Origin: Bacillota bacterium
GTDB taxonomy: Bacteria; Bacillota; Desulfitobacteriia; Desulfitobacteriales; Desulfitobacteriaceae
Direction of reading: 5' to 3'
Length of the DNA stretch: 35,133 bases
NCBI GenBank assembly: GCA_021811425.1
Contig: JAJZPA010000011.1
Span: 1 to 35,133 of the forward strand
Positions within the stretch are counted from its first letter, which is position 1; each line of letters opens with the position of its first letter. This document shows positions 9,810-21,746 of the stretch, one piece after another. The notes beneath the pieces are model-generated. The model searched no databases, was not told where the DNA came from, and was given only the letters and a program-made list of their open reading frames with translations. The translations under genes and the position numbers were made by a program.

Positions 9810-11528
9810 TTAAAACAGAAAATACCTCTGGGCCATGGGTAATTCCCGGGCCGGTTCACAGGTCAGTACTTCACCGTTGACAGTCACTTCGTAGGTTTCC
9901 GGATCCACTTTGATATCCGGAAGGGTGTCATTATGAATCATTTGCTTTTTGGTAAGGTGACGGCAATTACGCACCGGTCGGACCTCTTTGGCCAGCCCCA
10001 GCTTTTCTTTAATCCCGCTGGCATAAGCAGCTTGCGACACGAACGTTAAACAACTATGATACTTGGCCTTGCCCAACGCCCCGAACATTGGCCTGGTCAA
10101 AACCGGCTGGGGCGTAGGTATGGAAGCATTGGCATCACCCATTTGGCTATAAGTAATCATACCGCCTTTCAGGATTAATTCCGGTTTAACCCCGAAGAAC
10201 CGCGGTTGCCATAGCACAATATCAGCGACCTTCCCTACTTCCAATGAACCGACATATTCACTGATCCCATGCGTGATGGCCGGATTGATCGTATACTTGG
10301 CGATGTAACGTTTGGCCCGGAAATTATCATTGTTGCCCTTTTCTTCCGGCAGGCGTCCTCTTTGTTTTTTCATCTTATCAGCGGTTTGCCAAGTCCGTAT
10401 AATCACTTCCCCCACCCGGCCCATGGCCTGGGAGTCCGAACTGAGCATACTAAAAACACCTAAATCATGCAAAATATCCTCGGCTGCAATCGTTTCCGCC
10501 CGGATCCGGGAATCAGCGAAGGCGACATCTTCCGGTACTTTACTGTCCAGATGATGACAAACCATGAGCATATCCAGATGTTCGTCGATTGTATTCACCG
10601 TAAAGGGCCGGGTCGGATTCGTGGAGGAAGGAAGAATATTCGGCTCACCCGCAATCTTAATAATATCGGGAGCGTGTCCACCGCCTGCCCCTTCCGTATG
10701 GTAGGTATGGATGGTGCGCCCGTTAATTGCGGCTACAGTATCTTCAACAAACCCCGCTTCGTTCAGAGTATCTGTATGAATGGCAACTTGGACATCATAA
10801 GCATCCGCGACCCGCAGACAGGTATCTATCGCTGCCGGAGTGGTTCCCCAGTCTTCATGCAGCTTTAAACCTATGGCCCCCGCCATGATCTGTTCAATCA
10901 GAGGCTGTTCAAAGGAACAATTCCCTTTCCCTAAAAGACCGATGTTCACTGGGAATTCTTCGGCAGCCTCTAACATCCGGTGCATATTCCACTCCCCCGG
11001 CGTGCACGTCGTAGCATTCGTCCCTGTAGCCGGGCCGGTGCCGCCGCCGATCATGGTGGTAATACCGGAAGCAATGGCTGTCTCCACTTGTTGCGGCGAA
11101 ATAAAATGAACATGTGAATCTATCCCACCCGGGGTCACAATGAGACCTTCCCCAGCGATGACTTCGGTGGCTGCTCCGACCACCATGTTGCTGTCCACTC
11201 CGTCCATCAGGTTGGGGTTACCGGCCTTGCCGATCCCGGCAATTTTACCATCCCGGAGCCCTATGTCCGCTTTTACAATGCCCCAGTAATCGAGGATCAG
11301 GGCATTCGTAATCACGACATCCAAAGCACCCGTACTTCGTGTCGCTTCAGGGGATTGTCCCATACCGTCCCTCAACACTTTACCTCCGCCGAATTTGCAC
11401 TCATCTCCATAAACTGTAGCATCAGACTCTACTTCAATCATAATATCCGTATCGGCCAGGCGCACCTTATCCCCCGTCGTGGGACCATACATATCAGCAT
11501 ATTCCCGGCGCGTTATTTCTAAACTCAT
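9810..11528 (-). CDS. ureC: Urease subunit alpha
   Basis: 572 aa; [55 protein letters not shown]. Confidence 0.99.
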
Positions 11529-20636: not shown

Positions 20637-20665
20637 TTGTCATTATCGGACTGAAGCTATATCAT
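20637..20665 (+). promoter_or_regulatory. Putative promoter upstream of leader ORF
   Basis: TTGTCA (20637-20642), 17-nt spacer, TATCAT (20660-20665). Confidence 0.4.
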
Positions 20666-20696
20666 AATGTTAAATCAACTCGAAAGGGGGATCATC

Positions 20697-20747
20697 ATGC
20701 TTTTCTCCAACCTATTCGAAAATGATCAACCGGTCCTTCATCTCTAA
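20697..20747 (+). CDS. Putative 16-aa leader peptide MLFSNLFENDQPVLHL
   Basis: ATG 20697 preceded by GAAAGGGGG, stop TAA 20745-20747; its last codons form the 5' arm of a hairpin. Confidence 0.45.
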   Translation: MLFSNLFENDQPVLHL

Positions 20748-20784
20748 ACTCAAGACGGAGATGAAGGACAATTTCCGTCTTGAG
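20733..20784 (+). promoter_or_regulatory. Two interleaved hairpins (attenuator-like)
   Basis: Stem A GTCCTTCATCTC (20733-20744) / GAGATGAAGGAC (20758-20769). Stem B CTCAAGACGGAGAT (20749-20762) / ATTTCCGTCTTGAG (20771-20784). They share bases 20758-20762 and cannot both form fully. Confidence 0.65.
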
Positions 20785-20831
20785 AATTGTTTAGTTATCA
20801 AGTCAATTCTCAGGAGACGGAGGTTAATTTT

Positions 20832-21746
20832 TTGAAAAATTCTATTTTAGGAGCGATTTATCTCTCACTAGCGGCGAGTATCTGGGGTGGAATGTACGTT
20901 ATCAGCAAGTACGTTTTAGGATTTGTCCCTCCTTTTACTCTGCTCTGGTTACGTTACTGTATCGCCTTTGCCTTTCTGTTCGGCATTTGGCAATTCACTC
21001 GTCACAAACAAGCCAGACCCGACAGACTGAACTGGAAAACCGTCCGGCGTTTGGCTTGGATTGGGTTTATCGGTTATTTTGTATCAGTTGGTACTCAATT
21101 TATCGGAACAAAGCTAGCGGATGCGCATACAGGCGCGTTGCTGACATCCGCTTCACCCGCCTTTGTTATTCTCTTTGCCCGACTATTCCTGCACGAACCG
21201 CTCACCTGGCAAAAAGTCTCAGCTTTACTCCTGTCAACCGGGGGAGTCCTAATCGTTGTCGGTTGGGGAAATCATCAGGAAAACAGTTTCTTGGGCGAAC
21301 TTTTCCTCTTGGCAGCGGCGATCACTTGGGCTCTGCTTACCGTATCTGTTCGCCAGGCTGCCCAGTACCATTCGCCTTTGACAACCACAACCTTTGCTTT
21401 AGGATTTGCCCTCATTTTGACCACGCCCCTCATGCTCTGGGAGATTCTGAATACGACAATTTCCTGGTCATCCAGTCCTATCGTTCTTTGGGGCGGCATT
21501 GTCTATCTAGGGCTAATAGCGACAGCGGCAGCCTTTTTCCTCTGGAATAAAGGCATGGAGTTCATCGAGGCGGGCATCGGTTCTCTCTTCTTCTTTTTCC
21601 AACCGATCGTCGGGGCGTTCTTGGGCTGGCTTCTGCTCGGTGAAAAACTGCGTTGGAATTTCTTTTTTGGAGGCTCCTTCATTCTCTTGGGAGTCTTGCT
21701 TGCTACTGTCGACCCACGCACGCTCTTACGTCGTCGCATAGAGTAA
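20832..21746 (+). CDS. EamA/DMT family transporter
   Basis: Ten-TM DMT pattern (AASIWGGMYVISKYVLG..., LSTGGVLIVVGWG, FFFQPIVGAFLGWLLLGE). TTG 20832 follows GGAGACGGAGG; track start 20787 lies inside the hairpin region. Confidence 0.88.
   Translation: MKNSILGAIYLSLAASIWGGMYVISKYVLGFVPPFTLLWLRYCIAFAFLFGIWQFTRHKQARPDRLNWKTVRRLAWIGFIGYFVSVGTQFIGTKLADAHTGALLTSASPAFVILFARLFLHEPLTWQKVSALLLSTGGVLIVVGWGNHQENSFLGELFLLAAAITWALLTVSVRQAAQYHSPLTTTTFALGFALILTTPLMLWEILNTTISWSSSPIVLWGGIVYLGLIATAAAFFLWNKGMEFIEAGIGSLFFFFQPIVGAFLGWLLLGEKLRWNFFFGGSFILLGVLLATVDPRTLLRRRIE

Follow-up and report, generated by a model that had tools for sequence, protein, structure and literature searches.

What governs the expression of an EamA/DMT-family transporter in the Desulfitobacteriaceae – and what part does the short open reading frame in front of its gene play? 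The question arises from a contig of 35,133 nucleotides from a Bacillota bacterium of this family (JAJZPA010000011.1; the whole stretch of DNA that was analysed is referred to here as the window), in which the transporter gene occupies positions 20832–21746 on the + strand, starts with TTG and encodes 304 aa with two PF00892 repeats (E 1.9e-46). The protein matches NCBIfam TIGR00950 below the cut-off and YddG weakly, and has no PDB relative by sequence. Its gene lies among DUF401, HTH-cupin and AzlC genes and looks monocistronic. The neighbours were considered as a clue to the substrate and set aside, as annotated plasmid relatives have unrelated ones; a defence-system reading was also dropped, there being no PADLOC match. 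The answer favoured here is that the EamA gene is very probably governed by an erm-type translational attenuator, in which a ribosome stall on the leader opens the transporter's Shine–Dalgarno (SD) sequence.

Elsewhere in the window lie a TPP riboswitch (1571–1674, +, 80.3 bits) and an Rfam match to the 5' ureB sRNA (RF02514; 11078–11375, +, 102.9 bits). The latter lies opposite a 572-aa ORF (9810–11528, −), and this match to an antisense model may reflect only the conservation of the coding sequence.

Upstream of the transporter gene, a consensus scan finds a predicted sigma-A promoter (TTGTCA-17-TATCAT, 20637–20665, +) with 10 of 12 matches, whose hexamers are kept at the same place in a sister genome (TTGTCA-17-TATTAT) despite a diverged flank; this sigma-A-like site makes a transcription start at about 20672, upstream of the leader, likely. 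Between the promoter-like site and the EamA gene sits the ribosome-binding-site-preceded ORF of 16 codons that a sequence-only reading of this DNA had picked out, and all its elements are present: an ATG at 20697, 16 codons encoding MLFSNLFENDQPVLHL, a TAA at 20745–20747 (20697–20747, +) and, in front, the SD sequence AAAGGGGG (AAGGGGG, 20684–20690, +; AAAGGAGG in the sister genome). The putative stall motif, L-F-E-N-D-Q-P, occupies 20712–20732 (+). The leader ORF is identical in the sister genome at 51/51 nt, and leader ORF and intergenic region together at 135/135 nt, as against 826/915 (90%) for the EamA coding sequence and 33/96 for the upstream flank. The nearest relative of the EamA protein, from a metagenome-assembled genome of Desulfosporosinus sp., is 89% identical. 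The prospect, raised by the sequence-only reading, that stems and leader might prove unconserved in close relatives is contradicted by this identity and by the wide recurrence of the leader described below.

The RNA downstream of the motif can be divided into four segments, all on the + strand. Segment 1 (20733–20745) comprises the last leader codons and the first base of the stop codon, and is covered when a ribosome (footprint to +16) has the Pro codon at 20730–20732 in its P site. It forms the 5' arm of stem 1:2, or stem A, which had been proposed to pair 20733–20744 with 20758–20769 and does so exactly, with an additional U–G pair (20745/20757). Segment 2 (20749–20769) provides both the 3' arm of this stem (20757–20769) and the 5' arm (20749–20762) of stem 2:3, or stem B, which proved equally exact (20749–20762/20771–20784, 14 bp, one G–U). 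Segment 3 (20770–20789) is an anti-SD arm, whose partner is segment 2 in the ON state or segment 4 in the OFF state, and segment 4 (20804–20825) is the EamA SD region (CGGAGG, 20818–20823), sequestered by segment 3.

When the region 20672–20850 was folded, it proved far more stable than its shuffles (minimum free energy −55.1 versus −36.5 ± 3.7 kcal/mol; z −5.1; 0/200 shuffles). In the minimum-energy fold, 1:2 + 3:4, stem A is present, stem B is absent and the EamA SD is buried. Stem 3:4, which pairs 20770–20789 with 20804–20825 over about 20 bp, interrupted by a two-base bulge, and hides the SD of the TTG start at 20832, was absent from the sequence-only reading and is what explains the system: on the folding model, 1:2 + 3:4 would be the OFF state and 2:3 the alternative that frees the SD. 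The idea of attenuation coupled to translation of a leader peptide is well supported, the favoured form being translational attenuation and not termination; the details have shifted, with the computed control point now being the EamA SD, sequestered by 3:4, and stem B becoming an activating anti-sequestor.

As far as folding allows one to say, the promoter would yield a leader mRNA whose default fold, 1:2 + 3:4, hides the transporter SD, and ribosomes running through the 16-codon leader would leave it hidden. A ribosome whose P site is stalled at D-Q-P of the E-x-D-x-P (ExDxP) nascent-chain motif would cover segment 1 and leave segment 2 free; segment 2 would then capture segment 3 as stem B, the SD would be released and the transporter made. 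Most likely, in terms of this model, the switch turns the transporter on only upon such a stall at E-x-D-x-P.

The effect of ribosome position was computed by removing the RNA that a ribosome would cover, up to and including +16 from the P-site codon, and calculating the cost of opening the SD. In the window, this cost – an equilibrium RNA-folding energy that assumes the +16 footprint – is 9.9 kcal/mol without a ribosome and 3.4, 3.1 and 3.3 kcal/mol when D, Q and P of LFENDQP, respectively, occupy the P site, so that in the stalled state (about 3 kcal/mol) it is lower, not zero. A ribosome that finishes the leader had been expected to free stem B; at the stop codon, however, it also covers the start of the 5' arm of stem B, and at the last codon or stop the SD is predicted to be closed again (8.7–9.1 kcal/mol), leaving a stall around D-Q-P (3.1–3.4 kcal/mol) as the only one predicted to open it.

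The same trough appears among relatives. Across the 44 LFENDxP leaders scanned, the SD is cheapest to open when the P site is on D, x or P and costly again at termination, with medians of 9.4 to 4.2 kcal/mol in the QP group and 7.5 to 3.5 kcal/mol in the V/I group. Shuffling the motif-to-SD region makes the drop vanish (mean 4.06 observed versus −0.41 kcal/mol shuffled, 40 leaders); in 35 of the 40 leaders it is reached by at most 1 in 20 shuffles, and in the window by none. The focus on D/x/P was picked after the first scan, and the later set of 99 leaders found by starting from the transporter protein, which partly overlaps the first set, gave a mean drop of 3.44 versus −0.4 kcal/mol in shuffles; the 31 leaders with a non-END motif, which are new to this set, gave 2.97 kcal/mol. 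The drop amounts to at least 2 kcal/mol in 69 of these 99 leaders versus 9/495 shuffles, and stays below 2 kcal/mol in about 30% of them. As the trough falls on the motif codons and is lost on shuffling, the peptide motif and the RNA geometry independently indicate the same stall position.

A first count of the motif was biased by its search pattern, and a protein-first count was therefore made on regions upstream of EamA orthologues, drawn from genome contigs, from the order and family to which this genome belongs, and from a sample of Bacillales and Bacilli genomes. E-x-D-x-P, followed by 2–6 residues and a stop, occurs in 116 of these 183 upstream regions, compared with 0.3% in mononucleotide shuffles; after removal of duplicates there are 108 distinct leaders, before EamA orthologues of Bacilli and Desulfitobacteriaceae, with the pattern [LR]FExDxP. 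Since the search was for ExDxP, the invariance of E, D and P is a matter of definition, and what is informative, as sequence statistics go, is the frequency of ExDxP and its free flanks. In most leaders the motif is preceded by L or R and then F; its second x is V (77) or Q (34), rarely H, T or I; and the residue before D is mostly N, but also C, H, R, I, Y, K, D, T or W. Synonymous codons vary freely at the L, N, D, V/Q and P positions, with five Leu, two Asn, two Asp and four Pro codons in use. In the motif-first search, short LFENDxP ORFs that did not precede EamA lacked an SD or were the ends of long proteins.

A quick tree of 112 EamA proteins shows a clustered distribution of the leader, which several lineages have lost; its presence requires a minimum of 17 changes, at least 7 of them forced by well-supported branches. 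Homologues in Chloroflexi or Deinococcales yielded no ExDxP leader in their upstream regions. One leader (L192, in G489) reads LFENDVH and has lost the ExDxP–stop arrangement while keeping the leader-end and SD-like segments; by its sequence it looks like a decaying leader. The V-type leaders L027/L028 of Desulfosporosinus stand before an EamA that falls elsewhere on the tree and shares 47% identity with that of the window. The window's own Q-type gene groups with Bacilli sequences and possibly derives from horizontal transfer, to judge by its place on the tree. No plasmid copy of the window's exact leader was found, but plasmid-borne relatives exist: on pBM500 of the laboratory strain Priestia megaterium QM B1551, the leader MFLAPLFENDVPVALLRP (L140) precedes BMQ_RS26365, a DMT family transporter.

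The RNA itself bears marks of conservation. Stem 1:2 covaries in 16 Bacillales leaders (15 cells changed on both sides versus 5.5 in shuffles; 0/500). In this group (A1), 98% of the cells of stem 3:4 are paired, one change being compensatory; for stem 2:3 (11 bp) the figure is 96%, and the variation that could inform a test is small. The QP group has 5 predicted pairs with compensatory changes. For the Bacillales group, RNAalifold also proposes, next to 2:3, that the leader end pairs with the SD (1:4), which is consistent with the one-hairpin arrangement of three Desulfitobacteriaceae leaders (L031–L033), where the EamA SD is itself the pairing partner of the last leader codons; here the leader lies about 100 nt before the EamA gene, with just 16 nt from leader stop to SD. 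Between groups the stem sequences differ, while the pairing logic and the coding motif are conserved.

Other explanations of these observations have to be weighed. Stem B could be an intrinsic terminator, with the leader ribosome deciding between termination and read-through – a transcription attenuation of the kind known for B. subtilis bmrCD (PMC4191407) – and a pattern scan does list it as terminator-like (0.5 such sites expected by chance). However, its tail (AATTGTTTAG) has no U-run, and a stall with the same geometry would switch the gene off; moreover, the SD is covered by the rival stem 3:4, whose cells are 98% paired in relatives, and L031–L033 keep only the sequestration of the SD by the leader's own 3' end, so that this explanation is very unlikely. 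The mutual exclusivity of the stems would also suit a ligand-binding riboswitch or an H-type pseudoknot with the ORF incidental, but no Rfam family reaches threshold at the leader (its covariance models give only sub-threshold eukaryotic matches, taken as chance), it is the pairing logic rather than the stem sequence that is conserved between groups, the conserved stretch being the coding motif. For the pseudoknot, which the sequence-only reading had entertained, nothing was found in support, and this whole explanation appears extremely improbable.

Two further possibilities accept the leader ribosome as the sensor and differ in what would hold it up. A shortage of Pro, Asp or Glu might stall it and induce an amino-acid transporter: all three residues recur, the ON fold is obtained when the ribosome waits at the Pro codon (P site on x), and the EamA family, here with the weak TIGR00950 and YddG matches, includes amino-acid exporters. 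Yet the leader has no repeated codons, a hungry codon needs neither the conserved spaced residues nor the preceding [L/R]-F nor V or Q at x, and starvation would be an odd signal for inducing an exporter. Because the spaced residues recur and synonymous codons vary freely, a peptide-specific stall is favoured over hungry-codon control, which on the whole is quite unlikely; of the earlier suggestion of an amino-acid or antibiotic-type leader, it is the amino-acid half that loses ground. Alternatively, the RNA switch might be real and the peptide minor, with a general slowing of ribosomes, or translational coupling or re-initiation, setting expression, and any ribosome on motif codons 3–6 would indeed open the SD. 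The motif, however, recurs across deep divergence while its codons vary synonymously, and its position coincides with the SD-opening window, which makes this possibility unlikely as well.

The preferred reading, a peptide-specific stall that opens the SD, places the leader close to several known systems. In ermB, the RBS is sequestered and a stall at Asp10 frees the main gene (PMC8274638). Shared with the ermC and ermB leaders are a short leader ORF with its own SD, a main-gene SD hidden in the ground state and its release by a stall inside the leader via a mutually exclusive alternative hairpin, the last two being, for the window, predictions from folding; the differences are the motif, ExDxP, and the target, an EamA transporter instead of an rRNA methylase. 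The arrest motifs known from antibiotic leaders (RLR, +X+, IFVI) are absent from the leader, whose core is ExDxP, as are the single-amino-acid codon run and the U-run terminator of amino-acid operon attenuators. Cat-type translational attenuators have one hairpin, and chloramphenicol favours A, S or T before the stall position. L031–L033 resemble them in their single hairpin, in which the leader 3' end pairs with the SD, whereas ExDxP leaders are without A/S/T before the stall position and vary in the residue before Asp. In B. subtilis, bmrB is a 53-codon ORF with an intrinsic terminator inside it, and this leader of bmrCD reads drug-slowed ribosomes (PMC4191407); it resembles the present leader in encoding a peptide ahead of a transporter gene of Bacilli, but the window sequesters the SD and has no good terminator there. 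Finally, uORFC-6-1, before hflX in Bacillales, combines a conserved short RLR peptide with covarying RNA and is thought to sense stalled ribosomes; it shares this combination with the present leaders and differs from them in peptide and gene, EamA being absent from the main text of its description (PMC8632094).

The heptamers LFENDQP, LFENDVP, LFENDIP, LFENDLP and LFENDTP were found in no paper of the open literature searched by main text, and a search of the same texts for EamA together with a regulatory leader peptide returned unrelated papers only; the main text of three structured-RNA surveys makes no mention of the EamA leader. Given this silence and the lack of an Rfam family, the ExDxP leader is judged to be a new, widespread leader-peptide family in many Bacillota, with a mechanism of a known kind.

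As to what the leader senses, a review of context-specific inhibitors includes XDK and XP among the erythromycin arrest sites (PMC13410324), making a macrolide one candidate inducer among many, which is not to claim it as the inducer. The parts of the system, their conservation, the exclusive folds, the predicted effect of ribosome position and the match between motif and geometry have been established by computation; ribosomes would stall at ExDxP, as the recurrence of this motif suggests, and the stall would be triggered by a ligand that the EamA protein exports. Most likely, the trigger is a small molecule, either an antibiotic or a metabolite, that acts on ribosomes as they translate. ExDxP could then be a new nascent-chain sensor of a specific small molecule, and the EamA protein its dedicated exporter, in a widespread and undescribed detoxification circuit of Bacilli – a proposal with about equal chances of proving right or wrong.

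Few conserved arrest-type leader peptides are known, and those that have been studied often led to the drug or metabolite sensed on the ribosome. Here, more than 100 distinct ExDxP leaders precede one clade of uncharacterised EamA transporters and predict where the ribosome stalls. The leader turns the search for ligand and substrate into a simple reporter screen, which would link a transporter family left blank by annotation to its physiological trigger and probably to a class of substrate.
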